Positions 7,706 to 26,109 of a stretch of DNA of 34,259 nucleotides are shown here, piece after piece. The translations under genes were made by a program, and so were the position numbers. The notes under the pieces were generated by a model that worked only from the letters and a program-made list of their open reading frames with translations, was not told the DNA's origin and searched no databases. Source of the stretch: Candidatus Zhuqueibacterota bacterium. GTDB taxonomy: Bacteria; Zhuqueibacterota; Zhuqueibacteria; Oceanimicrobiales; Oceanimicrobiaceae. How positions within the stretch are numbered: position 1 is the first letter of the stretch; every line of letters starts with the position of its first letter. The stretch spans positions 1 through 34,259 of the forward strand of contig JAJDAG010000158.1 of NCBI GenBank assembly GCA_029262005.1. Direction: 5' to 3'.

Positions 7706-7976
7706 TCTGTTTTAGGCAACTTTCGGCATGCCCGACGCCTCGTGTTTGAAGGCACTTGTTACAGTTGCGTTAACAATGTTATCTTCATGACCCGGTAATT
7801 CCAATCATCGGCACAGATAAAGAACTTTTTAGATGTTACATAAAAAAAATGTTGTTTTCTGTTTATGCGGTTATGTGCCTATACCCATTGGAAAACCTAA
7901 AGTAATGCACCTTTTTGACGATGTTTAATCGGGAAAATGGAGTTTCTTTTTGCCAGTATTTCAAGGGTCAGGAAAT
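7706..7976. other. divergent intergenic region in front of the chemotaxis cluster
   Basis: These 271 bases separate the minus-strand small membrane gene from cheA. They are AT-rich and hold the sigma-28-like promoter at 7898-7924. I see no open reading frame or RNA structure of note in the rest. Confidence 0.5.
7898..7924 (+). promoter_or_regulatory. sigma-28 (FliA)-like promoter for the chemotaxis cluster
   Basis: TAAAGTAA (7898-7905), exactly 11 bases, then GACGATGT (7917-7924). The bacterial flagellar sigma-28 consensus is TAAAGTTT-N11-GCCGATAA, so the -35 matches six of eight bases, the spacer is exact and the -10 matches five of eight including the CGAT core. It sits about 50 bases upstream of the cheA ATG. 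The motif is seen in sequence; its use is inferred. Confidence 0.55.
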
Positions 7977-10325
7977 ATGCCGGATGCAGAACAACAAGAG
8001 TTGCTGCTTGCCTTTGTAGAAGAAGGAAATGAGCTGCTCGACGAAACCGAACCGCTGTTGATAGAGCTTGAGTCGAGGGCAAATGAGTCCGGCGAAATTG
8101 ACTACGAAATCCTCAATATGATTTTTCGCCTTTTTCATTCCTTGAAAGGCGGCTCTAGTTTTCTTGACCTTCTCACCGTGCAAGGAGTGACGCACGAGGC
8201 TGAAACACTCCTCGACCTTTTCAGGAAATGTTCACGAGAAATCCACCGGGAAACCATCGACCTTCTGACCCGGACCTGTGATTTTTTACGCCAACTGCTT
8301 GGCAATATTCAGTCTCATTTCACCGATGAAGGGTTTGACGACGAGGCAGAAAAGATAATTATTGCCTTAAAGGCTCAGATAGCCGCAATCTCCGGTGAAG
8401 GTGATTCTGGTCAGGAAGCCACCCCAATGGCAACTGACTCTAAAAGACGAAAGACTGTCAGGGGGGACGGCGAAAAAGCCGGTATACCTACTCCGGACGC
8501 CTTAACACAAAACGATGTGCCGGAGACATTTCACTTCGCCATCACGCCTGAAATCGTCAAACAATTTGTGGCTGAGTCTGAAGATTTACTGTCATCAGCC
8601 GAGGAGTCATTCCTGAGACTGGACAAAATGCCGGATGATATGGAGCATATCGACGAGGCATTTCGAGCTTTGCACAGTTTCAAGGGGAATGCTGGTTTTC
8701 TTGGCTATGAAGATTTGGAAAAACTCAGCCACCAGGCAGAAACTATTCTCGATAAAATTAGAACGCAGGAACTTGAAAGCAGCAAAGAAATATTTTCGTT
8801 GCTGCTCAACGTGCTCGATTGTCTGCGAACCGGCATTAGCCAGGTTGCTGGCGGCAAAGAAATAGTTCTTCCTGCGGCGAAAACCGCAATCGCCGCAATG
8901 CATTCGGTGCTGAAAGCAATCAGCCCTTCCGCGCAGTCTCCTGTAGATAAGCAACTTGTTGCTGAGCAATCAAAGGAGAAACATGGCCAACAAAAAATGA
9001 CTTCGGGGACCATGGAAACCGACGAAACAGGCGCTGCAGAAGCCACTTCAGAGCCGATTGCCCTGCCTGGTCTCAAGTCGTCAGGTGCGCAGCAAACGGG
9101 GGCTGAGAGACATTCGATTCGGGTAGATGTAGAGAAGTTGGGGGCACTGCTGGAACTGGTGGGGGAACTGGTTATTGCAGAAGCGATGGTGGCCCAGAAT
9201 CCGGATTTGCGAAATGTGAAAACCTCGCTCGATAACTTTGAAAAAGCGTCTCTGCATTTGAATAAAATTACGCGCGATTTGCAGGATATTTCTACTTCCA
9301 TTCGAATGATTCCTTTATCCGGGACTTTTCGCAGAATGATCCGTCTGGTGCGGGATCTGGCGCAAAAAACCGGGAAAAAAGTGGATCTGATTATTACAGG
9401 AGAAAATACAGAAGTGGATAAAACGGTCATTGAGCAGATTGCAGATCCACTCGTTCATCTTATCCGCAATGCAATTGACCACGGTTTATCCACACCGGAA
9501 AAACGAAAAACGTTTGGTAAATCCGAAACAGGCCAACTTGTGCTGGGCGCAAAACACGTGGGAGGCGAAGTCTGGATTTCTATCATTGATGATGGACAGG
9601 GCCTTTCCCGGGAAATGATTCTTAGGAACGCAGTTGCAAGAGATTTGGTCAAAGGTTCCGGTGCGGAATTGACGAATGACGAAGTATGGCGTCTGGTCTT
9701 TGAGCCTGGCTTCTCAACTGCGGAACAGGTTACGGATGTTTCCGGCCGTGGAGTCGGCCTGGATGTTGTGAAGAGAAATATTGAAAATATTCGTGGCAAA
9801 ATAGACATTGTCAGCAAACCGGGGAAGGGAACCGAAGTCATCCTGCGAATTCCCTTAACATTGGCCATTATAGACGGGATGATCATCAGGGTCGGCTCAA
9901 GTCGTTATATTATACCAATTATTTCCATTGTTGAAACACTGCGGCCCAACTTTCAGGAGATAACCGTCACAATGGATGGCCATGAAATTCTCAACGTTCG
10001 CGGCAATCTCTGCCCGGTCGTTCGCTTGCATGAGTTTTATAATTTGGAGCCGAGTTCAACCGAACTTACGGAAGGCATCGTCATTTTAGTTGAAAATGCA
10101 GGTAAACGATTTGGGCTTTTTGTCGATGAGTTGGTTGGGCAACAGCAAGTCGTTATTAAGGGGCTGTCTGAATTTGTAGGCAATATTAAGGCCATTTCCG
10201 GTTGCACAATTATGGGTGATGGCAGAGTCTGTTTGATTGTCGATATCGCTGCTTTAGCTGATTTATTTTTCAATGGCTATCAAACGGAAGCTGCCTTGCC
10301 GGAACCATTAGAAGAAAAAATGTGA
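7977..10325 (+). CDS. cheA: chemotaxis histidine kinase CheA with two Hpt domains
   Basis: The 782-residue product is a CheA. It has an N-terminal Hpt domain with H-S-L-K-G (His54) and a second Hpt domain with H-S-F-K-G (His233). After a low-complexity linker (about 310-375) come the dimerisation helices (about 380-450), a HATPase with N box H-L-I-R-N-A-I-D-H-G (about 494-503), D-D-G-Q-G and G-R-G-V-G-L-D, and a C-terminal CheW-like domain (about 630-765). It phosphorylates itself on Hpt His and passes phosphate to CheY and CheB. I see no recognisable CheY-binding P2 domain between Hpt2 and the dimerisation region. I start at the ATG at 7977, preceded by AGGA, rather than the TTG at 7950. It is the first gene of the cluster. 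Confidence 0.95.
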   Translation: MPDAEQQELLLAFVEEGNELLDETEPLLIELESRANESGEIDYEILNMIFRLFHSLKGGSSFLDLLTVQGVTHEAETLLDLFRKCSREIHRETIDLLTRTCDFLRQLLGNIQSHFTDEGFDDEAEKIIIALKAQIAAISGEGDSGQEATPMATDSKRRKTVRGDGEKAGIPTPDALTQNDVPETFHFAITPEIVKQFVAESEDLLSSAEESFLRLDKMPDDMEHIDEAFRALHSFKGNAGFLGYEDLEKLSHQAETILDKIRTQELESSKEIFSLLLNVLDCLRTGISQVAGGKEIVLPAAKTAIAAMHSVLKAISPSAQSPVDKQLVAEQSKEKHGQQKMTSGTMETDETGAAEATSEPIALPGLKSSGAQQTGAERHSIRVDVEKLGALLELVGELVIAEAMVAQNPDLRNVKTSLDNFEKASLHLNKITRDLQDISTSIRMIPLSGTFRRMIRLVRDLAQKTGKKVDLIITGENTEVDKTVIEQIADPLVHLIRNAIDHGLSTPEKRKTFGKSETGQLVLGAKHVGGEVWISIIDDGQGLSREMILRNAVARDLVKGSGAELTNDEVWRLVFEPGFSTAEQVTDVSGRGVGLDVVKRNIENIRGKIDIVSKPGKGTEVILRIPLTLAIIDGMIIRVGSSRYIIPIISIVETLRPNFQEITVTMDGHEILNVRGNLCPVVRLHEFYNLEPSSTELTEGIVILVENAGKRFGLFVDELVGQQQVVIKGLSEFVGNIKAISGCTIMGDGRVCLIVDIAALADLFFNGYQTEAALPEPLEEKM

Positions 10326-10400: not shown

Positions 10401-10922
10401 ATGGTAAAGCTTATGACCGAGCAGGATATGCTGGAATTAAATACTGTAACCAATGTTGATGAGGACGCTCAGGAGGGAAAATATCTCACCTTCTCACTTG
10501 GTAAAGAAGCGTATGGCATCGAAATTCGCAATGTTACAGAAATCATCGGTATTCAACACGTTACAAAGTTGCCGGATACCCCACCTTTTGTCAAAGGTGT
10601 CATCAACTTGCGCGGCAAGGTCATTCCGGTCCTTGACGTAAGACTCCGATTTGACTTAAAAGAGAGGAAATATGATGACCGTACTTGCATTATCGTTGTC
10701 AATATTCGAAATATGTCAGTCGGCCTGATTGTCGATACAGTGTCTGAGGTTCTGGACGTTCCTTTCAAAAATATTGAGGCGCCACCCAAAATTAAAAACT
10801 GTTCCGGAAATCGCTACATCTTAGGACTTGGAAAAGTCGGCAGCCAGGTTATGATTATATTGGATAGCCACAAATTGTTATTTGGCGATGAGGTGGAGCA
10901 AATAGCGGATGCCATCGTTTGA
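10401..10922 (+). CDS. cheW: chemotaxis coupling protein CheW
   Basis: The 173-residue product is a single CheW domain: L-T-F-S-L-G-K-E-A-Y-G-I-E near residue 30, then L-P-D-T-P-P-F-V-K-G-V-I-N-L-R-G (about 56-71), the segment most conserved in CheW, and I-V-D-T-V-S-E-V-L in the second half. CheW links receptor tips to CheA in the chemosensory array. About 27 residues precede the domain; the start could be the ATG at 10401 or the ATG at 10413. Neither has a good ribosome-binding site. It lies 75 bases after cheA and 33 bases before the receptor gene. Confidence 0.95.
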   Translation: MVKLMTEQDMLELNTVTNVDEDAQEGKYLTFSLGKEAYGIEIRNVTEIIGIQHVTKLPDTPPFVKGVINLRGKVIPVLDVRLRFDLKERKYDDRTCIIVVNIRNMSVGLIVDTVSEVLDVPFKNIEAPPKIKNCSGNRYILGLGKVGSQVMIILDSHKLLFGDEVEQIADAIV

Positions 10923-10955: not shown

Positions 10956-13277
10956 ATGGAAACAACAAAAGAACACACGGTGAAGCTGAAAATGCGCTTC
11001 AGGCAGATGAGTCTCAAGACAAAAATGCTTATACTGTTTGTCTTTGCCGTCATTGTCGTGCTGACTGGCAACACTCTAATTACAAGCGAAGTAACCCGGG
11101 GTGCGCTCTCCGACAATATAAACTCTTCCCTGCAAGTGATAACGCAAATTGCAGGTGAAGCGGTTGCGACCGGCTTGGAGTTTGAGGATGACGATGCGAT
11201 TGCTGCTGCAGTAAAACCGTTCACTCACCAAACCCTGTTTTCGTATATTTGTGTATCCAACAAAGCCGGCGAAGATGCTTATTGCTTTAGACGACCGGGA
11301 TTTCCGCCTATTCAGAGGCTCAACGTGGGCACACTTGAAAACGAAATGTTCAGCGTCGGTAGTGTGACTTCTGATGGGCATGAAATAGGCAAAATCATGC
11401 TTGGCATCTCACTTGATGAGCGCAACAAAACGTTGCGCGCCGCATGGATATCGACTGCTTTGATGGCAGTGGCCTGCTTGCTGATATTTGTGGTAATAAC
11501 TTTATACATCGCAAATATGATTTCCAGACCAATCAAAAAAATTACTCAAATTGCCGGAAATCTTGCGGACGGAGATCTTGAGCAGGAGATCAATATTTAC
11601 CGCAATGACGAAATTGGCGCCCTGGCCGATTCTTTCCGCGCCATGGTGGATTCGCAGCGCGCAAAAGCAAATATTGCCAATGATATTGCCAGAGGGAATC
11701 TTGGTGTAAACATAGGAGCGGTTTCGGAAAAAGATATCCTGGGAATGGCTATTTTGACAATGAAGGAGGCCATTCAAGGTCTGCAAATCGAATTACAACA
11801 TGTTATTGATGCTCAAAAAGCCGGCAACATGGATGCGCGCTGTAACCCAGATGAGCACAACGGGGCTTACGCAGAACTCCTTGGTGGCATCAATGACGCA
11901 CTGGATGCTGTAACGTTACCCGTGCTGGAGTCTATCGAGATCATGCGTAAATATGCTGTTGGGGATTTACAAAACCAAATGCGGGAGTTGCCCGGCCAAC
12001 AGATCGTTTTGACCGAGAGCTTAAATGGGATTCAGAAAAACTTGCAGGCTTTGATTAACGAAGGAACAATGCTTGCCCAGGCAGGGAAGGCCGGCAATCT
12101 TGTTAGTCGCGGGCAGACGGATGCATTTCAAGGTGGTTATCGTGAGATCATTGAAGGTATGAACCAAACTTTGGAAAACGTCCTGGCGCCTATCAACGAA
12201 GTTGTTCACTGTTTGACCGGAATGGCCAAAGGCGAACTCTCTGTTTCAGTCGAAGGAGATTACGAAGGTGAGCATGCTGTCATGAAACAAGCCTTGAACC
12301 AAACTCTGGAATCTTTGCATGACATGCTTGCTCAAATTGACGTTGCCGCCAGTGATGTTGCTGTTGGGGCCGGACAAATCTCGGATTCCAGTCAATCCCT
12401 GTCTGAAGGTGCAACCAAACAAGCAAGCTCTCTGCAACAGATAACTTCTTCCATGAGCGAAATTGGCTCACAAACGAAGCAAAATGCAGAAAATGCCAGT
12501 CAGGCAAATCAGTTAACCGATGCAGCACGTGAAAATGCACATGAAGGCAACGAGCAGATGAAAAAAATGCTTGCTGCAATGGAAGAGATCAAGAAATCAT
12601 CCGATGAAATTTACAATATTATCAAGGCAATTGATGAAATTGCCTTTCAAACCAACCTTCTTGCCTTGAATGCGGCAGTCGAAGCTGCCCGTGCCGGTGT
12701 GCACGGAAAGGGCTTTGCCGTGGTCGCCGAAGAGGTCCGAAACCTGGCGCAACGCAGCGCCAAGGCCGCCCAGGAAACAACCGAACTTATAGAAAATTCG
12801 GTAAACAAAGTGGAGAACGGCACCAAGATCGCCAACATGACCGCCAGCTCTCTGGGACGAATTGTTGAAGACGTAACTCAGGTAACCGGTCTGGTGGCCG
12901 AGATCGCCAGCGCCTCCCATGAACAAGCGATGGGAATTGAACAGGTCAACTCAGGACTGATTCAAATCGACCAGGTAACACAGGCGAACATAGCCGGTGT
13001 TGAGCAAAGTGCTGCTGCTTCGCAAACATTATCCAATCAGGCAAACCAGGTCAAACAATTGTTAAGTAAATTTTCTCTACGTAGTTCAAATTCAACTGCA
13101 AGCGTTCCGGGGGCCCGTGGTGCAGGAGTGACCGTAGTCAAACAAGCACCGGCTCATAGCCCTCTCCGCGGTTGGGATGCGATGGATTCATCACAATCGT
13201 CGCAGCCCAAACCCAAAAAGGGTTCGGCACCGCCTGACTTCATTGCTTTGGATGATGATGAATTTGATGACTTTTAG
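10956..13277 (+). CDS. methyl-accepting chemotaxis protein with CHASE8-like sensor and repeated HAMP-like units
   Basis: The 773-residue receptor has TM1 (about 24-43), a periplasmic region (about 44-163), TM2 (about 164-188), a HAMP domain (about 189-235), a run of further HAMP-like units (about 240-455), then the signalling domain with the conserved hairpin tip (E-I-A-F-Q-T-N-L-L-A-L-N-A-A-V-E-A, about 561-577). The periplasmic part has the layout of CHASE8 sensors: a long helix with A-G-E-A-V-A-T-G-L-E-F-E-D, then an S-Y-I-C-V-S-N-K-A-G strand and a G-H-E-I-G-K-I-M-L-G strand. It has Cys99 and Cys110. The C terminus is a flexible Pro/Ser/Lys-rich linker ending in E-F-D-D-F, which fits the x-[FHWY]-x-x-[FHWY] pentapeptide tether for CheR/CheB. 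The next gene encodes a YfiR-like secreted protein. Confidence 0.93.
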   Translation: METTKEHTVKLKMRFRQMSLKTKMLILFVFAVIVVLTGNTLITSEVTRGALSDNINSSLQVITQIAGEAVATGLEFEDDDAIAAAVKPFTHQTLFSYICVSNKAGEDAYCFRRPGFPPIQRLNVGTLENEMFSVGSVTSDGHEIGKIMLGISLDERNKTLRAAWISTALMAVACLLIFVVITLYIANMISRPIKKITQIAGNLADGDLEQEINIYRNDEIGALADSFRAMVDSQRAKANIANDIARGNLGVNIGAVSEKDILGMAILTMKEAIQGLQIELQHVIDAQKAGNMDARCNPDEHNGAYAELLGGINDALDAVTLPVLESIEIMRKYAVGDLQNQMRELPGQQIVLTESLNGIQKNLQALINEGTMLAQAGKAGNLVSRGQTDAFQGGYREIIEGMNQTLENVLAPINEVVHCLTGMAKGELSVSVEGDYEGEHAVMKQALNQTLESLHDMLAQIDVAASDVAVGAGQISDSSQSLSEGATKQASSLQQITSSMSEIGSQTKQNAENASQANQLTDAARENAHEGNEQMKKMLAAMEEIKKSSDEIYNIIKAIDEIAFQTNLLALNAAVEAARAGVHGKGFAVVAEEVRNLAQRSAKAAQETTELIENSVNKVENGTKIANMTASSLGRIVEDVTQVTGLVAEIASASHEQAMGIEQVNSGLIQIDQVTQANIAGVEQSAAASQTLSNQANQVKQLLSKFSLRSSNSTASVPGARGAGVTVVKQAPAHSPLRGWDAMDSSQSSQPKPKKGSAPPDFIALDDDEFDDF

Positions 13278-13313
13278 TTGGACTATTGAGCCTATTAATA
13301 CGGGATTTATACT

Positions 13314-13847
13314 ATGAAGCGATTTAAGTTAGCACTTTTAGCACTGCTCGTGGTTGGGCAAGTTGGTCTTCTGCAAGCCTTGGAAATAACCCCGCTGCAG
13401 GTTTTTTATATTGTACGGCAGGGGTTTCCCGAACAAACAGAGGTTTCAGTTTTGATTACTGAGGCGGATTACCACCGTCAGGAGAAAAAAATTGGTCGTG
13501 CAGCAGCGCAAATGCAGCTTAAGGTAACGATTCATGTTGTTCGAAATTCGCTTGACGTGGGCAAAGCTGTCAAGAGGACGCCGAACAAATCAATTCTGGT
13601 AGTCTTTGACAATCCAGCACTCACAAGTAGCAAAACGAAGCTCTATGTATTATCCAAATGCAAAGATAAAAAAGTGTCAATTGTTACTACTTCGCAGGCT
13701 TATTCTGAGTCAGGGGCGCTTCTCGGGGTGTACAATGAGAAAGAGAATGTGAAAATTGTCTTGAATTTAAAGAAAAATAGCCACTTAAAAGCCATGTTCA
13801 GCGAAGAAGTTAAAACGAAACTGGGCGTCAGTGAGGTGTTGCTTTAA
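13314..13847 (+). CDS. YfiR-like periplasmic protein
   Basis: The 177-residue product begins with a clear signal peptide (M-K-R-F-K then a hydrophobic core to about residue 21; cleavage likely near L-Q-A). The mature part alternates strands and helices. Its C-terminal half (S-I-L-V-V-F-D-N-P-A-L near 93-103, V-S-I-V-T-T-S-Q near 120, S-G-A-L-L-G near 133, V-K-I-V-L-N-L near 146) follows the pattern of the YfiR/DUF4154 family and more distantly of ABC-type substrate-binding folds. YfiR in Pseudomonas is a periplasmic regulator of the CHASE8-bearing cyclase YfiN. The gene follows the receptor by 36 bases, so an accessory sensing role for that receptor is a reasonable inference. There is one Cys in the mature part. 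Family assignment is from pattern only. Confidence 0.55.
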   Translation: MKRFKLALLALLVVGQVGLLQALEITPLQVFYIVRQGFPEQTEVSVLITEADYHRQEKKIGRAAAQMQLKVTIHVVRNSLDVGKAVKRTPNKSILVVFDNPALTSSKTKLYVLSKCKDKKVSIVTTSQAYSESGALLGVYNEKENVKIVLNLKKNSHLKAMFSEEVKTKLGVSEVLL

Positions 13848-13910
13848 AGGAATGACAATTTGCCTGTTTAGTTTGTGCGAGCCTTTCCAATGCATGCCAC
13901 TATAATCCTC

Positions 13911-14432
13911 ATGAAGAATAAGTTCGTTATTCTAAGTCTATTAGTAACCCTGTTCATAGCATTGCAACCGAACGCTGCAGCGGGACAGGATTCATGCGCA
14001 ACTCAGAACGCCATTACCACACTCGGAGAAGAGTTAAAGCACCTCATCGCCGAGGAAACAAAACGACGTGAGGCGGAGACAAGTGCACTCAAAAAAGCCC
14101 TTCAAGTATTAGCTGCGCACCCAGATCAAGAGGTTGTGACCGGCATCACACGCCGGCAGTACATCGACCTGCTGCAACGCATTCAAGATATTAACAAGCT
14201 ATTTCAAAAAAGCGGTGAAGAACTCAATGACAAAATTAAGAAGCTTGAGAAGCACAACCGCCAAACCAGGTCCGCACCAGGTGACACAATATTTTTCGAA
14301 CAAAAAGCGATGCAACACTATCTCATTCAAGTCAAGGACGTTTTAGAGCGATTGAGCCCCGGAACTGTGCCTGGGAAGAACCTGAAATCTGCAAGTGCTC
14401 AGAAAGAAAAACAGGAACCGGGACCGCGCTAA
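13911..14432 (+). CDS. secreted coiled-coil protein of unknown function
   Basis: The 173-residue product from the ATG at 13911 has a signal peptide (M-K-N-K then hydrophobic to about residue 17; cleavage likely after A-A-A-G). A GTG at 13875 and an ATG at 13890 upstream would lengthen the n-region without benefit. The mature part is highly charged and helical, with heptad-like stretches (E-E-L-K-H-L-I-A-E-E-T-K-R-R-E-A-E and K-I-K-K-L-E-K-H), so a periplasmic coiled coil is likely. One Cys lies just after the signal peptide (D-S-C-A), but the preceding residues do not make a good lipobox. I do not recognise a family. Its place between the YfiR-like gene and cheR suggests a part in the same input module. 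Confidence 0.6.
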   Translation: MKNKFVILSLLVTLFIALQPNAAAGQDSCATQNAITTLGEELKHLIAEETKRREAETSALKKALQVLAAHPDQEVVTGITRRQYIDLLQRIQDINKLFQKSGEELNDKIKKLEKHNRQTRSAPGDTIFFEQKAMQHYLIQVKDVLERLSPGTVPGKNLKSASAQKEKQEPGPR

Positions 14433-14504: not shown

Positions 14505-15350
14505 TTGAAGGAAAGCATCTTGTCGGCCATCATCAGACTTATGGACAAAGAATTCGAGTTGATACGGGATTTGGTTTACACCAAGTTTGGCATCAATTTG
14601 ACCGAGCAAAAAAAATTTTTGATGGTGAGCAGACTTCAAAAGGAATTGCGTCGCCATAACTTTCTGTCTTTTTACCAATACTACAAATATGTTCGAGCCG
14701 ACAGGACCGGCGAGGCATTGGTTGCCCTAATCGATCGAATTTCAACAAATCACACATTCTTTTATCGTGAACCCGCACAGTTTAATTTTTTTGCCAACAC
14801 TGTTTTACCTGAATTGAAGGAGAGGTGTATTTCTTGCAAAAGTAGAAGAATCAGGATTTGGTGTGCAGGTTGTTCAACCGGTGAGGAAGCCTATACATTA
14901 TCAATGCTAATTCATGATTTCTTTCATTATGACATCAATTCCTGGGACATAAAAATTCTGGCAACCGACATATCAAGTCGTGTTTTAGATGTTGCAAGAA
15001 CAGGTGTTTACACGGATGAAAATGTTGCCAACTTGCCGAGGGAACTAAAGAGACGTTATCTGTGCAGGGTGTCGGAAGATGAATGGCGAATCACTGAGTC
15101 GGTTAAGAAACTCATTCATTTTGGTCGGTTCAACCTGATGCGGGAAAAATTTCCATTTAATGGTCGATTTGCAGCTATATTCTGTCGCAATGTAATGATC
15201 TATTTTGACAAGGAAACCAGGCATTCTCTCATTGAGCATTTTTTCGAGTTTACTGAAGAGAAGGGTTATCTTTTTGTCGGACATGCGGAGGCAATAGATC
15301 GAAAAAGATCTTCATTTTGCTATGTGGAACCGGCAATCTACAGCAAGTAG
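14505..15350 (+). CDS. cheR: chemotaxis protein methyltransferase CheR
   Basis: CheR methylates glutamates on the receptor signalling helices using S-adenosylmethionine. The product has an N-terminal helical CheR domain (to about residue 75), I-S-T-N-H-T-F-F-Y-R-E (about 85-95), the SAM-binding loop I-W-C-A-G-C-S-T-G-E-E (about 122-132), A-T-D-I-S (about 158), C-R-N-V-M-I-Y-F (about 229) and G-H-A-E-A near the end. The start is uncertain: the TTG at 14505 has no ribosome-binding site, whereas a TTG at 14520 has AAGGA eight bases upstream; an ATG at 14541 is also possible. The region that binds receptor pentapeptides in some CheRs is short here. The stop is eight bases before cheB. Confidence 0.95.
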   Translation: MKESILSAIIRLMDKEFELIRDLVYTKFGINLTEQKKFLMVSRLQKELRRHNFLSFYQYYKYVRADRTGEALVALIDRISTNHTFFYREPAQFNFFANTVLPELKERCISCKSRRIRIWCAGCSTGEEAYTLSMLIHDFFHYDINSWDIKILATDISSRVLDVARTGVYTDENVANLPRELKRRYLCRVSEDEWRITESVKKLIHFGRFNLMREKFPFNGRFAAIFCRNVMIYFDKETRHSLIEHFFEFTEEKGYLFVGHAEAIDRKRSSFCYVEPAIYSK

Positions 15351-15358
15351 AGACAATT

Positions 15359-16417
15359 GTGAGCAAAAAAAAAATCAGAGTACTTGTGGTAGATGATTCA
15401 ATAACAGCCTGTGGGGTGTTAACTCAAGGTTTGTCTGTTGATCCCGAAATAGAGGTAGTAGGCAATGCAGCAAATCCCTATATCGCGCGGGATAAAATAT
15501 TGCAATGCCGCCCGGACGTTTTAACGCTTGATGTTGAAATGCCAAGGATGGATGGGGTTGAATTTCTCAGGCGACTTATGCCGCAAAACCCACTCCCCGT
15601 TTTAATGGTAAGTTCACTGACCCATCGTGGAAAGCGGGTCACGTTTGAAGCGTTGGAAGCAGGGGCTGTGGATTTCATAACAAAGCCGAGTTCGTATGCC
15701 GGCAGTGCCCTGGATTCGATGCTTCATGAGTTACGGACTAAAGTAAAAAACGTCTCCACCGCTAATGTGAGTCATTGGCAGAACGTAAACTATCGCCCAC
15801 CGCAGGCACCCAAGCGAGCAGCAAAGCCTCCGGTAATACCCACGGATAAGATCATTGCAATCGGCGCTTCTACCGGGGGTACGGAGGCGATTCGTAATGT
15901 GCTCTGTCGGCTTGAGGCTGATACTCCGGGAATCGTAGTTGTACAACATATGCCGCCTGGATTTACAAAAATGCTTGCTCAACGTCTGAACGAACAATGT
16001 GCATTGGAGGTGAAAGAAGCCGTTTCTGGAGATGTGCTAATGATTGGTCAGGCATTGATTGCTCCCGGCGATTACCATATGACTGTGCAGCGTTCCGAAA
16101 ACGGTTACCGGGTTGAATGTAAAAGCGGCGACAAGGTTTGTGGGCATAGGCCGTCTGTTGACGTGTTGTTTCACTCCATTGCTGCATCGGCAGGAGCTAA
16201 TTCGACCGGGGTCATATTAACTGGAATGGGATATGATGGGGCTGAAGGACTCGTTTCCATGCGACGTGCAGGCGCAAAAACACTTGCGCAGGACGAAAGC
16301 ACATCTGTGGTATTTGGCATGCCTAAAAGTGCCTATGAACGCGGTGGAACCAAGGAACTTATTCCCCTCGACCACGTTGCGAAAAAAATAATGACTTTTA
16401 TATCGGAGCGTTCTTGA
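15359..16417 (+). CDS. cheB: protein-glutamate methylesterase/deamidase CheB
   Basis: The 352-residue product has an N-terminal receiver domain with the phospho-accepting Asp58 (L-T-L-D-V-E-M-P-R-M-D-G) and Lys109, a linker rich in Pro/Ala/Lys (about 140-163), and the methylesterase domain with the catalytic triad: Ser171 (G-A-S-T-G-G), His197 (V-V-Q-H-M-P-P) and Asp293 (T-G-M-G-Y-D-G). CheB removes receptor methyl groups when phosphorylated by CheA. I use the GTG at 15359, eight bases after the cheR stop; a longer frame back to 15317 runs inside cheR and adds no conserved sequence. cheD overlaps its stop codon. Confidence 0.95.
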   Translation: MSKKKIRVLVVDDSITACGVLTQGLSVDPEIEVVGNAANPYIARDKILQCRPDVLTLDVEMPRMDGVEFLRRLMPQNPLPVLMVSSLTHRGKRVTFEALEAGAVDFITKPSSYAGSALDSMLHELRTKVKNVSTANVSHWQNVNYRPPQAPKRAAKPPVIPTDKIIAIGASTGGTEAIRNVLCRLEADTPGIVVVQHMPPGFTKMLAQRLNEQCALEVKEAVSGDVLMIGQALIAPGDYHMTVQRSENGYRVECKSGDKVCGHRPSVDVLFHSIAASAGANSTGVILTGMGYDGAEGLVSMRRAGAKTLAQDESTSVVFGMPKSAYERGGTKELIPLDHVAKKIMTFISERS

Positions 16418-17757: not shown

Positions 17758-18147
17758 ATGATAGAAAAGGTGGTTATTGCAGATGACTCTTCGACAGCCA
17801 GGATGATTATTCGGCGTTGCCTGGAAATAGCAGGGTGCATCGATGTTGATTTTCTCGAAGCTGAAGACGGTGTGCAGGCGCTTCATTTTGTCCGCGAGGA
17901 TGATGTCGATTTGTTGGTGACCGATTTGAACATGCCAAACATGGACGGACGCTTGTTGCTTAAGCGTGTTAAGGGCAGTCCGAAACTTACAAACATTCCA
18001 ATTATTATCATCACCAGTGCCAGTAATGAGGCCATCAGGGAGGAACTCATTAAACAGGGGGCGCATGCGGTTGTTACAAAGCCTGTCTCACCGGCAAGTG
18101 TTGCCAAAGCACTTGAGGATTTGATGGACGAAAAGCAGTGGGGTTAG
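17758..18147 (+). CDS. cheY: CheY-like response regulator (first copy)
   Basis: The 129-residue product is a stand-alone receiver domain. It has the acidic pocket (A-D-D, 8-10), phospho-accepting Asp56 (V-T-D-L-N-M-P-N-M-D-G), the switch residue in I-T-S-A-S (86-87) and Lys108 (V-T-K-P). There is no output domain, so it acts by protein binding. It starts one base after the HDOD stop and is followed by a CheX-like phosphatase gene, giving one of two CheY-CheX pairs in the cluster. Either CheY could be the FliM-binding one; the other could be a phosphate sink or drive another output. Confidence 0.92.
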   Translation: MIEKVVIADDSSTARMIIRRCLEIAGCIDVDFLEAEDGVQALHFVREDDVDLLVTDLNMPNMDGRLLLKRVKGSPKLTNIPIIIITSASNEAIREELIKQGAHAVVTKPVSPASVAKALEDLMDEKQWG

Positions 18148-18148
18148 C

Positions 18149-18670
18149 ATGAACAAATGCCTGAGTAAACTAGATGGCGCTCTGTTCGCTGCGATTTCAA
18201 AAACTATGGAAAACATGACTTTTGAAGAGGTGCAAATCGTTCATCATAACAAAGAGGCGAACATCTTTGTCAAAGATGCAACCTGGGCAATATTACCGAT
18301 TGTTCGTCCATATTGTGGGCAATTGGTGCTTGAAATCACCCCTGGATGCGGGCATACATTTGCCGGAGTTGTTATAGGAAAGATCGACAAAAATGAAGTA
18401 TCTGATGAATGGATTCAGGATATGCTGGCGGAGATGGCCAATACCATTGCCGGGCGATTTGTCGCTGCACTGCTCCAGGATAATGAAGCCTTTGAATTGG
18501 GGCTTCCAACAACCGGGCAGGGGCCCATGCCGAAGCTCGCAACCTACATAACAAAAATTTCTTTAAATATTGGGGGGCATTCAATGGTCGCAAGTATTGC
18601 CGGTGATGCCTTCAGGCACTTTGCCGGTACTAAGCAAGAGGTGATTGAGAATGAAAATTCTTGTGGTTGA
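18149..18670 (+). CDS. CheX/CheC-like phosphatase
   Basis: The 173-residue product has a CheC/CheX/FliY-type phosphatase signature, D-x3-E-x2-N (Asp91, Glu95, Asn98), with a Pro 22 residues further on, as in the family consensus. The rest is weakly conserved and differs clearly from the second CheX in this cluster. Such proteins dephosphorylate CheY-P using the Glu and Asn. It lies directly after the first cheY (ATG one base past its stop), suggesting a dedicated partner. Its 3' end overlaps the second cheY by 20 bases. Confidence 0.8.
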   Translation: MNKCLSKLDGALFAAISKTMENMTFEEVQIVHHNKEANIFVKDATWAILPIVRPYCGQLVLEITPGCGHTFAGVVIGKIDKNEVSDEWIQDMLAEMANTIAGRFVAALLQDNEAFELGLPTTGQGPMPKLATYITKISLNIGGHSMVASIAGDAFRHFAGTKQEVIENENSCG

Positions 18671-19019
18671 CGACTCTGCGGTGATGCGAAAAATCATGAT
18701 CAAGGCGCTCAATGAAGGTGGTTACACAGATGTTGTTGAGGCTGCCAACGGTCTGGAGGCGCTCGAAAAATCTGCCGGGGTAGATTTGGTCTTCACGGAT
18801 TGGAATATGCCGGTAATGGACGGGTTGGCCTTTGTGAAAGAATTCAGAAAAACCACGCAAAAGCCGATAGTCATTATCACCACCGAGGGTGGCAAAAAAG
18901 AAGTTTTAGAGGCAATGAAATCAGGCATCAATGACTACATAGTTAAGCCATTTAGTGCAAACGTCATCTTGAGCAAAATCGAGAGTCTCCTGCAAAAATC
19001 AGGCTGCGGACCGGATTGA
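18651..19019 (+). CDS. cheY: CheY-like response regulator (second copy)
   Basis: The 122-residue product is a classical CheY: M-K-I-L-V-V-D-D-S at the start, phospho-accepting Asp50 (F-T-D-W-N-M-P-V-M-D-G), T-T at 77-78 and Lys99 (I-V-K-P-F). The ATG at 18651 has GAGGTGA six bases upstream, so I choose it over the TTG at 18645. The start lies inside the end of the CheX-like gene (20-base overlap). Of the two CheY proteins, this one looks closer to the motor-binding type because of the T-D-W-N-M-P segment seen in E. coli-like CheYs. Confidence 0.94.
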   Translation: MKILVVDDSAVMRKIMIKALNEGGYTDVVEAANGLEALEKSAGVDLVFTDWNMPVMDGLAFVKEFRKTTQKPIVIITTEGGKKEVLEAMKSGINDYIVKPFSANVILSKIESLLQKSGCGPD

Positions 19020-19025
19020 GGCTAC

Positions 19026-19547
19026 ATGAAAATGAGTAAACATTTACTTGGAAACGAAAGTTTCACTCAGGATTTTATTGAAGTGACGATTGAAGTTTTA
19101 TTCACCATGACGGGGCTGGATGTCGAATCCAGCGGCTTTTATGAGATCGAAGGCCATTCTCAAGGGCTTGATGTTACTTCCTGTATGGATATTACAGGCA
19201 TTCTGGGTTTTTCAGGTGGTCGGCGTGGTTCGGTCTTGCTCACATTTAAGGAAGAGACAGCTTTAAAAGCCGTAGGTGGTATGCTGGGAATGGAATTTAA
19301 AGAGATCGATTATTACGTCCGGGACGGCGTTGGTGAACTTGTAAATATGATAGCAGGCGGTGCCAAGGCAAAGCTGCAGCCCAAAGGACTGGATTTTGAG
19401 TTGTCAATCCCGAATACCATCAGTGGGCCGGCACATAAGTTGTCTGCTCCCGACTCTGCAGTCCGGACCAGACTTGATTTTACATCACCTGCGGGCATTT
19501 TTTTTGCTGAAATCTATCTGCAAGAAGCAGTGTTGCTGCCATTGTAA
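19026..19547 (+). CDS. cheX: CheX-type CheY-P phosphatase
   Basis: The 173-residue product fits CheX: the motif D-x3-E-x2-N is at Asp100, Glu104 and Asn107 (D-G-V-G-E-L-V-N), followed by the amphipathic helix and P-N-T-I-S-G. The middle has G-I-L-G-F-S-G, and R-R-G-S-V-L-L-T-F as in CheX/CheC. CheX is usually a homodimer that dephosphorylates CheY-P. It follows the second cheY by six bases and precedes fliM. The ATG at 19026 has GAGG four bases upstream; an ATG at 19032 is also possible. Confidence 0.88.
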   Translation: MKMSKHLLGNESFTQDFIEVTIEVLFTMTGLDVESSGFYEIEGHSQGLDVTSCMDITGILGFSGGRRGSVLLTFKEETALKAVGGMLGMEFKEIDYYVRDGVGELVNMIAGGAKAKLQPKGLDFELSIPNTISGPAHKLSAPDSAVRTRLDFTSPAGIFFAEIYLQEAVLLPL

Positions 19548-19606: not shown

Positions 19607-20596
19607 ATGTCAACTGAAGCTTTATCGCAAAATGAAATTGATGCACTGTTAGCGCAGTCCCAAAGCGTCTCTGGTGCACATGAAGATTCCGGTAAACCGG
19701 GTAAATCGGTTTTTTCCTATAATTTCAGTAAACAGAGAAAATTCAACAAGAACGATTTCATCAGCATTGAGCACATTCATAAAAAGTTTGTTCGAAATAT
19801 TGAAATTTCACTCACCAATGTCCTTAACACACCGATAATGGGAACGCTCGCTGCTGCGACAGAGCTTTCATATGGTGATTGTTTGGATTCTTTTGCTTCA
19901 CCAACCTGCATTTACGTTCTCTCCATAAATGGTAATCAGGGAAAATTTATTTTAGAAATCGACCCGAACTTTGTTTTCTTTGTCATTGAAAGAATTCTTG
20001 GCGGCAACTCAAACGAGATTCATTTAATGGACAGAGAGTTGAGTCAAATTGAAGAGAGGATCATGCAAAGGGTGGTTAATTTTCTGCTGAAAGACCTGGT
20101 TCATGCCTGGGCGAGGGTGGAAAAGTTGTTGGTCGAACTCGATGTTTTTTACGCACAGCCCGACTATGTTCAGGTTGTTAGCAAATCCGAACCCGTCATC
20201 CTTGTGTCAATGGATATGCGGACCTCGGAAAAAAATCTGGGCTATCTGAATCTTTGCTTGCCTGGCAATGTGCTGGACGGCCTGAATTTGAGAGGAGAAA
20301 AGGAAGCAGATACCAGGCATGTTGCTGAATCCTCACCACAAGACCGCAGAAAATTAGAACAAAATGTCAATAATTCTATTTTACCGCTTCGGGTAATTTT
20401 GGGGCAAACAAACATGAGCGTAACAGACCTGCTCAGCCTGGGTTCCGGCGACATTATTAATTTAGATAAGGAAGATGGAGGCGTGGTTGACGTTTATGTC
20501 GGCAATCTTAAAATGTATAAAGCCATTCCATCGAAAAAGGACAATGCCCTTACAATTCAGATAGCGGAAGTAATCGCAGCCACAGAAGTCGCATGA
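19607..20596 (+). CDS. fliM: flagellar motor switch protein FliM
   Basis: The 329-residue product is FliM. The N terminus has L-S-Q-N-E-I-D-A-L-L-A (7-17), the conserved peptide that binds phosphorylated CheY. It is followed by a short linker, the middle CheC-like domain (about 45-230) and a C-terminal SpoA/FliN-like domain (about 250-325, with L-P-L-R-V-I-L-G and S-L-G-S-G-D-I-I-N-L). FliM sits in the C ring and sets rotation direction. No other flagellar structural gene is in the window. It closes the chemotaxis cluster, 59 bases after cheX, with a possible terminator just past its stop. Confidence 0.94.
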   Translation: MSTEALSQNEIDALLAQSQSVSGAHEDSGKPGKSVFSYNFSKQRKFNKNDFISIEHIHKKFVRNIEISLTNVLNTPIMGTLAAATELSYGDCLDSFASPTCIYVLSINGNQGKFILEIDPNFVFFVIERILGGNSNEIHLMDRELSQIEERIMQRVVNFLLKDLVHAWARVEKLLVELDVFYAQPDYVQVVSKSEPVILVSMDMRTSEKNLGYLNLCLPGNVLDGLNLRGEKEADTRHVAESSPQDRRKLEQNVNNSILPLRVILGQTNMSVTDLLSLGSGDIINLDKEDGGVVDVYVGNLKMYKAIPSKKDNALTIQIAEVIAATEVA

Positions 20597-21259: not shown

Positions 21260-21301
21260 TTGTCCTGGAAGAACCATTGAAAAGAGAGAGTGAAAACAAT
21301 C

Positions 21302-22579
21302 ATGGCTGATATTTGGCAAACAGCGCTTCGGGGCGTTAAAAAGAGCCATGTTCTGGAAAAAGTGTATGCAGCCGCAATCATCAATCAATTCCCGATAGCA
21401 GTTTGGCGTATGCCGGAATCGCCTGTCAAACAAGCTGTGGTAGATTTGTCCGGCAGCCTTGAAACGACTCCGGTTGATTTCAAGAATCTTCCCGCAGGCT
21501 TCAGTATTTCTCCATTTGAGAACGCAGGAAACCGGGGCCCGCTTTTCATTAAGGCCAATCTGCATTTGCGGGACTCTGAATGCCGCTTCACTCATGCGGG
21601 CGATAATTCTACACTCCTTCTTGAAAATAAAGAAAAACTGGAACGGACAATTTTTGATTTTCGAGCCAACGGTGTCGAAGCGGCTGCACTGAAAGCACCC
21701 TGGTTTGTCCATAGTCGTTCAGAAATTGATTTTAAAGAGCCGCTAAAGCCTGAATATTGTGAACTTGTAGAAAAGGCGGTGCAAGAAATCCATTCAGGTA
21801 ATTTTCAGAAGGTGGTACTATCACGTCTGCTTGAGGTGAAACTCGCCGAGACTTTTCACCCGCTTGTTATGTTTGATGCGCTGTGTGAAGCTTATCCGAC
21901 CGCGTTTGTCTCACTGGTTGCGCTGCCCGGCATTGGTACCTGGATCGGTGCCACCCCTGAGCTGCTTTTTAGCCTGAAAAACGATGAATTTTTGACAGTT
22001 TCTTTAGCTGGAACAAGGCCCGTAGCGCCCGGCAATAATGGTTGGGCGCGAACCTGGGGCGAAAAAGAAATTGTTGAACAAGAGATTGTTAGCGAGTTTA
22101 TTCGCGATTGTTTCAAAAAACTCGGCATTGATAACTATTCAGAACAGCCTGTACGAACTGTACAAATCGGCAATTTGCTGCATCTGCAAACGGAATTTAA
22201 AGCTCCTCATATTTCAGAATTCGGAAAAAAGACGGTCGAAAGGTTGCTGGGTTCCCTGCATCCGACGCCGGCAGTCTGTGGTGTGCCACAGAAGTTTGCA
22301 CGGGAATTTATTAAGAATGAAGAGTTCCACGATAGAGAGTTTTACACCGGATTTTTGGGGCCGGTAAACCTGCAAAATCAGTCACAACTTTTTGTTAATT
22401 TGCGCTGCCTGCAGTTGCTGCAAAATTCCGCGCTGGTTTATGTGGGCGGTGGCATCACTTTTGACTCGAATCCTGAGCAGGAGTGGCTTGAAACCGAACT
22501 GAAACTCGAGGCATTACTGAAATTCGTTTTTGGAAATCACCACAGCGCTTCGCTGCAACAACAGGCAAAAGCAATATGA
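21302..22579 (+). CDS. menF: isochorismate synthase MenF
   Basis: The product (425 residues from the ATG at 21302) is a chorismate-utilising enzyme that converts chorismate to isochorismate, the entry step of menaquinone synthesis. Visible family segments are F-Q-K-V-V-L-S-R (with the Lys of the catalytic loop), W-I-G-A-T-P-E-L-L, L-A-G-T-R-P, L-H-P-T-P-A-V-C-G-V-P, F-Y-T-G-F-L-G and Y-V-G-G-G-I-T, in the usual order in the C-terminal 250 residues. The N-terminal 150 residues are less conserved, as in other isochorismate synthases. A GTG at 21290 would add four residues. Its stop overlaps menD (ATGA). An entC-type role in siderophore synthesis is excluded by the operon context. Confidence 0.93.
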   Translation: MADIWQTALRGVKKSHVLEKVYAAAIINQFPIAVWRMPESPVKQAVVDLSGSLETTPVDFKNLPAGFSISPFENAGNRGPLFIKANLHLRDSECRFTHAGDNSTLLLENKEKLERTIFDFRANGVEAAALKAPWFVHSRSEIDFKEPLKPEYCELVEKAVQEIHSGNFQKVVLSRLLEVKLAETFHPLVMFDALCEAYPTAFVSLVALPGIGTWIGATPELLFSLKNDEFLTVSLAGTRPVAPGNNGWARTWGEKEIVEQEIVSEFIRDCFKKLGIDNYSEQPVRTVQIGNLLHLQTEFKAPHISEFGKKTVERLLGSLHPTPAVCGVPQKFAREFIKNEEFHDREFYTGFLGPVNLQNQSQLFVNLRCLQLLQNSALVYVGGGITFDSNPEQEWLETELKLEALLKFVFGNHHSASLQQQAKAI

Positions 22580-24285
22580 GCCAGTTCAGGCAAAGCATCC
22601 TGAGCATCGCTGAGATTTGCGCTCGCAAAGATGTTAAAACAGCCATTCTTTCTCCGGGCTCACGTTCAGCGCCATTATCGCTTGCCTTCCTGCGCCATCC
22701 CAAAATAGATTGTAAAACCGTCGTCGATGAACGTGCTGCAGCTTTTATCGGCCTGGGTGTTGCCCAGCAAACACGTCACCCGGTCGCACTTGTTTGTACT
22801 TCCGGCACGGCAGCGCTGAATTACGCGTCTGCAGTGGCTGAGGCTTTTTACCAGCAAATTCCCTTGATTGTTTTTACGGCCGACCGGCCCCCTGAATGGA
22901 TTGCCCAGGATGATGGTCAGACAATCGTGCAACCTCGTCTTTTCGAGCCACATTGCAACGCATCATTTGAGTTGCCGGTGGATGACCGGCATCCGGATGC
23001 GCACTGGCATTTCGAGCGTATTCTATCGGAGGCCATCACCCGAACATTGTACCCCGTGCCCGGACCTGTGCACGTGAACGTACCGCTGCGTGAGCCGCTT
23101 TACCCCGAAAGTACTTTCAAATATCCTGAAAAGCCGGGAATTACAAATGTCGTAAATATTCAAGCCGATCTGGACGCCGAAACCTGGCAGGTGTTGCGCG
23201 AGCAGTGGGTGCAAGCCGAGCGAAAACTCATCGTTGCAGGCCTGTCGAATTGTGGTTCTAAATTGACCTCGACCCTGCAACGCTTGCAATTACAAACCGG
23301 TGCCGTGCTGCTGGCAGACGTAACATCGAATTATAGAGAAAAGCAACTATGTCCACTTTTTGATATGGTTTTGGGAACGCGTTCACCTGAGGCTGCAGAG
23401 GCGTTGCAGCCGGATTTGCTATTGACTTTTGGTGGTCCGGTGGTGTCGAAACACTTAAAACTTTATTTGCGCAAATACAAACCGCAAAATCACTGGCACA
23501 TTCAAAATAGAGTGGGTTGGTCTGATCCGTTTCAGTCTACCAGCACCATCGTACCTATGTCGCCTGAAAGATTTTTCGGATTGTTTGTTGAACGACTGCC
23601 ATTGGACAAAAGCAATTGCGCTTCCGCCTATACCGGTGCATGGAAAGAGCGTCAGCAGAATGCCAACCGGATTTTAGCGACTTTTTTGCAGGAAGCGCCG
23701 CACTGTGAATTAACTGCCATGTGGCAGGTTTTAGAAAATTTACCCCGCAATACCGCTCTGCAACTCGGCAACAGCGCCATCGTTCGTCTGGCAAATTTTT
23801 TGTCTATCAATAAAAACATAAGTGTTTCAGTCAATTCCAATCGTGGCACTTGTGGTATAGATGGTTCCGTCAGCACGGCTGTTGGCGCCGCTTTGTCAAG
23901 TGAAAATCTGACAACGCTGATAACCGGCGACCTTGGTTTTTTTTACGATCGAAACGGCCTCTGGCATGATTATTTGCCGGCCAATCTGAGAATTATTATT
24001 TTTAACAATCAGGGGGGAGGCATTTTTCGTATTCTGGATGGCTGCCGGGATTTACCCGAACTCGACCGGCACTTCGAAGTTGCGCACGAACTTACAGCAG
24101 AAAATGTAGCCAAAGATCACGGGTTGGCTTATGCCGCTTGTGCCACGGGTGAAGGGCTCGCACGACACCTGCAAGATTTTTTCAAGCCCATGGACCGTGC
24201 GGCAATTCTCGAAGTCAAATTCGACAAAATTCTCAACTCTGAAATGTTTCTTCAGTTTAAATCCATGTTAAAGGAGATCCGATGA
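22576..24285 (+). CDS. menD: 2-succinyl-5-enolpyruvyl-6-hydroxy-3-cyclohexene-1-carboxylate synthase MenD
   Basis: The 569-residue ThDP-dependent enzyme joins isochorismate and 2-oxoglutarate, releasing CO2 and giving SEPHCHC. It shows S-P-G-S-R-S-A-P-L (about 27-35), the catalytic Glu in D-E-R-A-A-A-F (about 52), [16 protein letters not shown], and the ThDP motif in the C-terminal third ([15 protein letters not shown], then N-N-Q-G-G-G-I-F). The normal length is about 550-580. Its ATG overlaps the menF stop, and its stop overlaps menB by the same four bases, so the three are probably translationally coupled. Confidence 0.96.
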
Positions 24286-25109
24286 GTGCAAATAAAATTC
24301 AGTGGGAAGTCCTCAAAGAATTCGAGGATATTCTATTTCTTTATCATAATGGCATCGCCAAGATAAGCATTAACAGGCCACGCGTTCATAACGCATTTAG
24401 ACCCAAGACAGTTTTTGAGTTGTCCGAAGCCTTTGAGCTGGCTCGGCAAAATGGCGATGTGGGTGTGGTGATCTTGACCGGTGAAGGCGGCAAAGCGTTT
24501 TGCAGCGGCGGCGATCAGAGGGTTCGGGGCGAAGGAGGGTATGTTGGTGGTGATGGTGTCCCGCGTCTGAATATTTTGGATGTGCAAAAGCAAATTCGCT
24601 CCATTCCCAAGCCGGTTATTGCTATGGTCGCTGGTTGGGCAATTGGCGGCGGGCATGTACTGCATGTTATTTGCGACTTAACCATTGCTGCTGATAACGC
24701 CCGTTTCGGCCAGACGGGCCCCATGGTTGGCAGTTTTGATGGCGGTTTTGGTTCTTCCTATCTCGCCAGAATGGTGGGACAAAAAAAGGCGCGTGAAATT
24801 TGGTACCTCTGTGAAAAGTATGATGCCGCCGAAGCGTTACAAATGGGATTGATTAACAAAGTTGTGCCCCTGGCCGAGCTGGAAGGTGCGACCATTGAGT
24901 GGTGCAAAAAAATTCTTGAAAAAAGCCCGATGGCGTTGCGTTTGCTCAAATCGGCATTTAATGCTGAACTTGATGGCCAGGCCGGCTTGCAGGAATTGGC
25001 CGGCAACTCTACGCTGCTCTACTATCTGAGCGAAGAGGCCAACGAAGGTCGCAAGGCTTATGTTGAAAAACGCAAGCCGGACTTTTCAAAATTTAAAAGA
25101 TACCCCTAG
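24282..25109 (+). CDS. menB: 1,4-dihydroxy-2-naphthoyl-CoA synthase MenB
   Basis: The 275-residue crotonase-fold enzyme cyclises o-succinylbenzoyl-CoA to DHNA-CoA. It has the oxyanion-hole segments [10 protein letters not shown] and G-W-A-I-G-G-G-H, the [12 protein letters not shown] motif with the catalytic Asp, and the conserved C terminus P-D-F-S-K-F-K-R. The Gly in Q-T-G-P is the residue reported to bind the bicarbonate cofactor in type I MenB enzymes such as that of E. coli, so this is likely the bicarbonate-dependent type. A 121-base gap separates it from menA, unlike the overlaps elsewhere in the operon. Confidence 0.96.
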
Positions 25110-25230
25110 GTGGCTTTGTGGCTCCAGGTACTTCGGTTTGGGGCGTCATGAAAATGAAGAATTAAGCCAATTGTGAACGGGGAGCGGAGAAAAGGGGAAG
25201 GGGAAAAGATTGAGGTTGAAACTAGGCAAG

Positions 25231-26109
25231 ATGAAAAAATCAAAAGTTTGGATTTCTGCTTTTAGAATAAGAACTCTGCCGTTGGCGCTGGCAAGTATCT
25301 TGTTGGGCAGTTTTCTTGCGGCTGCTGAAGGTGCATTCAGTTGGCCTGTAGCGCTGCTCTGCGTTGCAACCGCAATCTTGCTGCAACTGTTGTCAAATTT
25401 GGCCAATGACTATGGCGACAGCGTACACGGCGCAGACAGCGATTTGAGAACCGGCCCACAGCGCGCAACCCAATCCGGGAAAATATCAGCCTCTGCCATG
25501 CGCGCAGCCATTCTTGTTTTTGTAGCACTTTGTCTTTCCGTAGGCTACATTCTCATCCGCAACGAAAGTATAGTTTTTCATATCGCCGGCCTGGCAGCCA
25601 TTGCAGCAGCTATAGCCTATACCGCGGGCCCCAAGCCTTATGGTTATGTTGGCCTTGGCGACATTTTTGTCTTTTTGTTTTTCGGCATCGTTGGTGTGAG
25701 TGGCTCTTATTTTTTGCACACACACCAATTGAACTACCTGACTTTGCTGCCGGCAACGGCCTGTGGCTGTTTCTGTGTAGCCGTTTTGAATATCAACAAT
25801 ATTCGCGATACCGCATCGGATGAAGCCGCCGGCAAGATCACCATCCCGGTTCGGCTTGGCGCCGACAAGGCACGACTCTATCATTGGGCGCTTTTGCTAC
25901 TCGGGTTTGGTGCAGCGGTCGTGCATCTTGTGATTACTTATCGAAATCCATGGCAGTTTTTGTTTTTTGTTAGCCTGCCTCTAATTCTAAAAAACGGCAT
26001 TGCCGTTTCCCGGCAAAAGGATAACGCGCAACTGGACCCTTACCTTAAGAAAATGGCGCTTTCGACCCTGCTTTTTTGCCTCAGCTTTGGCGTCGGGAAT
26101 TTGTTTTGA
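25231..26109 (+). CDS. menA: 1,4-dihydroxy-2-naphthoate polyprenyltransferase MenA
   Basis: The product (292 residues from the ATG at 25231) is a UbiA-superfamily membrane prenyltransferase. It has eight or nine hydrophobic helices and both Asp-rich motifs: N-D-Y-G-D-S-V-H-G-A-D (first) and N-N-I-R-D-T-A-S-D-E-A-A-G-K (second). It attaches the isoprenoid chain to DHNA at the inner membrane to give demethylmenaquinone. A TTG at 25210 would extend it by seven basic residues and has the purine-rich GGGGAAAAG upstream; the ATG at 25231 gives M-K-K-S-K before the first helix. The stop overlaps the menC start by four bases. Confidence 0.94.
   Translation: MKKSKVWISAFRIRTLPLALASILLGSFLAAAEGAFSWPVALLCVATAILLQLLSNLANDYGDSVHGADSDLRTGPQRATQSGKISASAMRAAILVFVALCLSVGYILIRNESIVFHIAGLAAIAAAIAYTAGPKPYGYVGLGDIFVFLFFGIVGVSGSYFLHTHQLNYLTLLPATACGCFCVAVLNINNIRDTASDEAAGKITIPVRLGADKARLYHWALLLLGFGAAVVHLVITYRNPWQFLFFVSLPLILKNGIAVSRQKDNAQLDPYLKKMALSTLLFCLSFGVGNLF

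Follow-up and report, generated by a model that had tools for sequence, protein, structure and literature searches.

Periplasmic binding proteins can act as ligand-presenting partners of transmembrane receptors, as maltose-binding protein does for Tar and LuxP for LuxQ; both of these are two-lobe proteins, and the sensor domains they serve differ from the one described here. In the YfiR-YfiN(-YfiB) systems of Pseudomonas aeruginosa and Escherichia coli, a CHASE8-type sensor (in a protein of CHASE8-HAMP-GGDEF architecture) and a small periplasmic α/β partner (YfiR; family PF13689, DUF4154) are encoded next door to each other. The subject of this paper is a gene pair of related layout in a stretch of 34,259 nucleotides from Candidatus Zhuqueibacterota bacterium (GCA_029262005.1, contig JAJDAG010000158.1, positions 1 to 34,259; the whole stretch is called the window): a chemoreceptor with a CHASE8-like sensor (10956..13277), followed by a secreted protein of 177 amino acids (13314..13847) that resembles one lobe of a solute-binding protein (SBP) and is a remote homologue of YfiR. 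All genes of the chemotaxis cluster located in the window below are on the + strand.

Two parts of this picture were already known. Single-domain SBPs are often encoded near genes for methyl-accepting chemotaxis proteins (MCPs), where their function was described as unknown, with mention of neither YfiR nor CHASE8 (Nam 2023, PMC10805632). The YfiR-YfiN[PAS] core has been proposed to be modular and to serve outputs of the GGDEF, GGDEF-EAL, Hpt and kinase kinds, a list without MCPs (Malone 2012), and in 2012 YfiR itself was described as having no functional homologue in any other signalling system (PMC3375315). A literature search for YfiR together with chemotaxis, whose coverage left out many subscription papers, returned no report linking them. 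Thus, the link between these two bodies of work, and the MCP output, appear to be new.

The chemoreceptor and its sensor domain

The receptor comprises 773 amino acids. Its MCP signalling domain (residues 519-675, 12510..12980) matches PF00015 with an E-value of 1.6e-51, and in its own genome (98.66% complete) it is the only protein for which a PF00015 match was detected. Two transmembrane helices were read from the sequence, at approximately residues 24-44 (11025..11087) and 164-186 (11445..11513), and lie within helices 20-75 and 154-204 of the AlphaFold2 model. The periplasmic sensor (residues 54-149, 11115..11402; G000:C66:11115-11402 in the genome search) is CHASE8-like and of single-Cache type, and the second transmembrane helix is followed by a HAMP domain (residues 185-233, 11508..11654; PF00672) and a poly-HAMP linker (HAMP_N3, residues 326-364, PF18575, and HAMP_2, residues 391-454, PF18947; together 11931..12317).

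The first-pass annotation had read the periplasmic region as a CHASE8 sensor. This reading holds as a resemblance along nearly the whole domain but falls short of a formal family match: the CHASE8 profile (PF17152) scores 20.1 bits on the periplasmic region (E 7.6e-4), 17.0 bits on the whole protein and 20.3 bits in the genome search, all below the Pfam gathering cut-off of 27 bits, with the alignment spanning profile positions 4-101 of 102, between the two transmembrane helices and with HAMP after it. Several further comparisons favour the assignment. Residues 1-232 (HAMP included) match NF053592, “HK, YfiR-like protein-associated” (E 1.2e-14; 54.5 bits, cut-off 194), so that the receptor is alike to these histidine kinases over that part and differs from them in having an MCP rather than a kinase output. 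The DgcN/YfiN model NF007423 likewise matches the N-terminal part, including HAMP, with E 1.9e-9, and E. coli DgcN, which was outside the training set, scores 23.9 bits against a sensor-only profile. Among receptors that are paired with a homologue of the 177-residue protein, 12/17 match CHASE8 (E 0.05 or better, best 8.7e-9), compared with 5/34 of the phylum's other MCPs (Fisher p 1.2e-4). The AlphaFold2 model (pLDDT 85.9) consists of a long helix and a small β-sheet, and its fold matches are WalK, the LapD-type CdgS9 and CitA, i.e., single-Cache or PAS-like sensors.

The YfiR-binding patch of P. aeruginosa YfiN has been mapped to AAVVF (PMC3375315). In the window receptor, the counterpart of the AAVVF of DgcN is TGLEF, which overlaps a G-L-E-F-E-D motif (receptor residues 73-78, from the motif alignment with DgcN). 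The F-x-D part of this motif is largely kept, with Phe present in 19/28 pairs and Asp, two residues on, in 27/28.

The partner protein as a single lobe of a solute-binding protein

The 177-residue protein begins with a probable signal peptide (residues 1-22, 13314..13379; MKRFKLALLALLVVGQVGLLQA), which is a low-confidence N-terminal helix in the structure model; the earlier claim that the protein is secreted agrees with this. A profile built from 16 homologues has as its top match the Rhodothermus marinus protein RmSBP (5z6v, E 3.6e-32), followed by the PF04392 solute-binding proteins 6hni, 3lft and 3lkv, which are matched over their second lobe. PF04392 is matched weakly by the window protein itself and by 14/18 members of the partner family, and profile-profile alignment of that family with full SBPs, over the C-terminal lobe, gives an hhalign probability of 99.6% (E 2e-23). 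The structure model (pLDDT 90.8) has 6k1y as its best fold match, and its leading matches are RmSBP and PF04392 proteins. As judged from these relationships, the 177-residue protein descends from one lobe of the PF04392 solute-binding proteins.

Several traits of RmSBP (PDB 5Z6V, 6K1W, 6K1Y and 8WGK) are found here: a similar size, one α/β lobe, a secretion signal and an MCP gene nearby, in this case 36 base pairs away. When the folds are aligned, RmSBP and the window protein are about 15% identical. PF04392 proteins, such as 3LFT with L-Trp, 3LKV and CD0873 (6HNI), share with the window protein only their C-terminal lobe; since the latter consists of one lobe, it has no clamshell, and it adjoins che genes rather than ABC transporter genes.

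The relationship to YfiR

The C-terminal half of the partner had been said to follow the YfiR pattern. The homology was borne out, although at a remote level, and the family assignment was not. Comparison of the partner family with DUF4154 gives an hhalign probability of 87.9% (E 3.2e-6) over the C-terminal 99 columns, corresponding to residues 75-174 (13536..13835), and comparison with YfiR-like intermediates gives 94.5% (7.5e-8); CheY, the negative control, gives 0.5%. The partner-family profile also picks up a genuine DUF4154 protein of the same genome (E 6.5e-6). PF13689 itself, which finds the positive control E. coli YfiR at 4.9e-31, is matched by 5/18 family members (best 5.8e-4) and does not match the window protein even at E 10, which rules out DUF4154 membership; SBP lobes are nearer relatives. 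Thus, on profile evidence, the C-terminal half of the partner is a remote homologue of YfiR/DUF4154 and not a member of that family.

None of the 50 best fold matches of the partner model is YfiR, and a PDB sequence search with the DUF4154 protein of the same genome reached YfiR at E 0.09 at best. The link therefore depends on the profiles together with a published fold comparison, in which the nearest folds of YfiR were 3LFT and 3LKV and YfiR was likened to their N-terminal lobe (Yang 2015, PMC4655355). The sequence match of the partner family is to the C-terminal lobe instead; the two lobes share their core fold. YfiR also binds vitamin B6 and L-Trp weakly (PMC4887326). The cysteine pairs of YfiR (Cys71-Cys110 and Cys145-Cys152 in P. 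aeruginosa) are absent from the window protein, which has a single mature cysteine (116) at a position not conserved across 28 homologues. With no conserved cysteine in the partner family, the disulphide chemistry of YfiR is not shared.

Recurrence of the receptor-partner pair

Members of the partner family were gathered from 82 genomes of the phylum, 388 relatives and the class to which genome G154 belongs (40 genomes), and their neighbours were read from the DNA; a contig profile search with a narrower partner alignment yielded 5 loci. At 34 of 41 strong single-lobe loci, a CHASE8-like receptor is encoded on the same strand within 261 base pairs: 13/17 in the KSB1-type phylum of the window, 21/22 in the G154 class (which contains a Calditrichota metagenome-assembled genome) and 0/2 in G159. 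About 23 of these 34 receptors were outside the set used for building the sensor profile. At L111 (genome G072), the receptor runs past the end of its contig. Similarity was thus found for both sensor and partner, and the pairing extends far beyond the genome for which the first-pass annotation proposed it.

The receptor precedes the partner in the window and in G003, a sister genus, and follows it in the other 32 pairs; the occurrence of both gene orders implies that the pair survived rearrangement. Several pairs are placed either between cheW and cheR or within che operons themselves (L027, L028, L206, L211, L220, L221 and L224). Within the phylum, single-lobe genes favour MCP-bearing genomes (16/17, compared with 39/82; p 1e-5), and in four near-complete genomes (G000, that of the window, G003, G009 and G014) the one MCP detected is the paired receptor. 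Distances among partners correlate with those among sensors (r 0.72, and a partial r of 0.60 once HAMP is taken into account; Mantel p 2e-4), which serves as supporting evidence only, as shared phylogeny contributes. Recurrent adjacency, restriction to MCP genomes, the two gene orders and the co-variation of distances are together best explained by a functional pairing of receptor and partner. As a separate observation, the MCP gene of a Calditrichota genome (L071:9094; L206) has an in-frame TAA within its HAMP region, due either to a sequencing error or to a split gene.

Variants with other partners or outputs

In lineages other than that of the window, full-length PF04392 proteins adjoin CHASE8-like receptors: at L098, L102 (an MCP, then CheA and CheB), L103 (a kinase), L106 and L107. 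DUF4154 proteins scoring above the cut-off lie directly upstream of MCPs whose sensors resemble CHASE8 weakly; this is the case in G075 (L199:7921-10024) and G080 (L149:884-3129).

Other arrangements were seen in passing. The genome of the window has, in one cluster (G000:C71; L040:3570-8674), genes for a TonB-dependent receptor, a DUF4154 protein (153 bits) and a CHASE8 hybrid histidine kinase; this is a true canonical YfiR-type module, separate from the pair in the window. Elsewhere in the same genome (G000:C43; L042:8101-11671), a porin and a secreted protein of 137-152 amino acids with a faint half match to PBP_like_2 precede a CHASE8-like kinase, and the secreted protein is possibly another half-SBP partner. 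A half-SBP of 145 amino acids (L197:16010-16447), matching PBP_like_2 at positions 94-191 only (PF12849, 1.1e-8), is encoded just upstream of an MCP gene. The 190-residue secreted protein whose gene (L184:5387-5959) comes just before that of a CHASE8-like MCP in G048:C452 has no significant Pfam match and looks, by eye, more like an N-terminal than a C-terminal SBP lobe. Open reading frames of 454 and 394 amino acids in G033 and G048 (L171 and L172) have two tandem DUF4154 matches, i.e., a double YfiR, and at L109:12795-15370 a phosphonate-type SBP (PF12974) is followed directly by a kinase-like protein whose sensor is CHASE8-like.

The third gene and the surrounding chemotaxis cluster

The gene order first annotated was right: receptor (10956-13277), 177-residue protein (13314-13847) and third open reading frame (13875-14432) follow one another, with gaps of 36 and 27 base pairs. 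No terminator-like site lies on the + strand between the three genes, and one lies within the second. The third frame (185 codons; likelier start, the ATG at 13911) begins with a signal-peptide-like segment and encodes an orphan secreted protein, probably helical, which has no Pfam or NCBIfam match near the cut-off and no homologue in 64 relatives. It had been described as a secreted coiled-coil protein; identity with YfiB was considered and rejected, as there is no match to the OmpA/Pal family, no homologue, and no lipobox in its sequence (...NAAAGQDSC).

The three genes are part of a flagellar chemotaxis cluster, running from cheA-cheW through cheR-cheB-cheD to fliM. Upstream of the receptor are cheA (7950..10325; two Hpt domains, H-kinase_dim, HATPase and CheW domains) and cheW (10401..10922; PF01584, 2.6e-39); downstream are cheR (14505..15350; PF01739, 4.9e-58), cheB (15317..16417; PF01339, 1.7e-63), cheD, a gene for an HDOD protein, and a cheY-like response regulator (17758..18147), whose blastp matches are receiver-only proteins occupying the corresponding position of syntenic che clusters. 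This setting supports the proposal that a CHASE8-type sensor feeds a CheA pathway here, and fliM (19607..20596; PF02154, 1.9e-36), which encodes the flagellar switch protein, indicates a flagellar output. Directly before fliM (18149-19547), a CheY-like protein is flanked by two CheX-type proteins. The che cluster is followed by menaquinone-type biosynthesis genes (21290-27176: chorismate-binding, MenD-like, MenB-like, UbiA and MenC-like), and similar genes seem to come after the che cluster in G005 and G007 too.

A proposed periplasmic co-receptor and its alternatives

The one-lobe binding protein is probably a periplasmic co-receptor that gates the CHASE8 chemoreceptor, which in turn would signal to CheA and the flagellar switch. 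The secreted protein would dock on the membrane-distal, single-Cache-like CHASE8 domain. A small molecule or the status of the envelope would determine whether it is bound or unbound, and this state would be passed through the second transmembrane helix, HAMP and the poly-HAMP stack to CheW and CheA, then to CheY and the FliM switch. By analogy, the geometry may be that of YfiR on YfiN, a soluble periplasmic α/β protein on a CHASE8 sensor, as suggested by the homology of receptor and partner to YfiN and YfiR, respectively. The output from CheA to the switch follows from the operon content and the known pathway. Physical binding, the ligand and the sign of the effect (repressor or activator) are inferred.

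Several observations weigh against such a role. Seven single-lobe loci have no receptor nearby (in G021, G042, G029 and G038, two in G159, and L225). CHASE8-like MCPs without an adjoining partner gene occur in G064, G007 and G053; that of G064 lies in a syntenic che operon and is 49% identical to the window receptor. Such a receptor can therefore probably function alone or together with a different partner. No specific ligand of RmSBP emerged from soaks with amino acids and metals (PMC10805632), and part of the Mantel correlation reflects shared phylogeny.

The alternative that survives best is a strict YfiNR type, in which the 177-residue protein would have no small-molecule ligand and would repress the receptor constitutively; envelope stress or a redox change would release it, and a partner in the outer membrane would sequester it. 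The CHASE8 sensor, the remote YfiR homology, the genuine DUF4154-MCP pairs within the phylum and the shared Phe/Asp motif all agree with this; however, the window protein has no DUF4154 match and SBP lobes as its nearest relatives, the YfiR cysteine pairs are missing, no cysteine is conserved in the family, and the third gene, having no homologue, is not yfiB. Such a repressor is therefore unlikely, and a ligand-presenting co-receptor is favoured over it because of the closeness to SBP lobes, the absent cysteines and the two-lobe versions.

A little less likely still is that the receptor senses a small molecule directly through its Cache-like domain, the single-lobe protein being a linked remnant of transport or scavenging with no role in signalling. 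Single-Cache domains such as that of CitA, one of the fold matches, bind ligands directly, and the partnerless receptors of G064 and G007 occupy the same che slot; against this stand the adjacency at 34 of 41 loci, across two lineages and in both gene orders, and the co-variation of partner and sensor distances beyond that of HAMP. It is very improbable that the two genes are neighbours by chance or through hitch-hiking within a single lineage. The cheW-cheR slot is indeed unstable in the family of the window, but the pair recurs in more than 30 genomes, which represent two lineages or more, along with full-length-SBP and DUF4154 versions; in a genome of several thousand genes, 1-17 of them for MCPs, a gene placed at random would have an MCP gene as its neighbour in about 1% of cases or fewer.

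The instability of this slot is seen in G002, which has other MCPs there, and in G005, in which the receptor is lost and the che operon retains a partner pseudogene remnant (L030:9737-10150; residues 91-159 and a frameshifted end). Independent co-loss of receptor and partner in G005 was considered and rejected, as a single deletion that starts in cheW and takes away the receptor and half of the partner (its first half), together with a frameshift, accounts for the locus.

Implications for chemotaxis and for YfiR

A periplasmic co-receptor of this kind would join two separate observations, namely that single-domain SBPs lie beside MCP genes and that YfiR lacks functional homologues. The function of RmSBP-type proteins would become directly testable with existing structures, YfiR would gain an evolutionary origin, and the YfiR-YfiN module would gain an MCP output that was absent from the 2012 survey. 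A broader view can be put forward tentatively, at slightly less than even probability: one-lobe (sometimes two-lobe) SBPs may be general periplasmic partners of CHASE8-type receptors, whether MCPs, histidine kinases or diguanylate cyclases, with YfiR a diverged member, so that RmSBP-type proteins could be seen as a “YfiR for chemotaxis”, the regulation by YfiR would be derived from SBP-gated sensing, and such a pair would be the sole chemoreceptor input in some bacteria. In G000, G003, G009 and G014, where no MCP other than the paired receptor was detected, chemotaxis as a whole may be steered by one ligand or one envelope signal.

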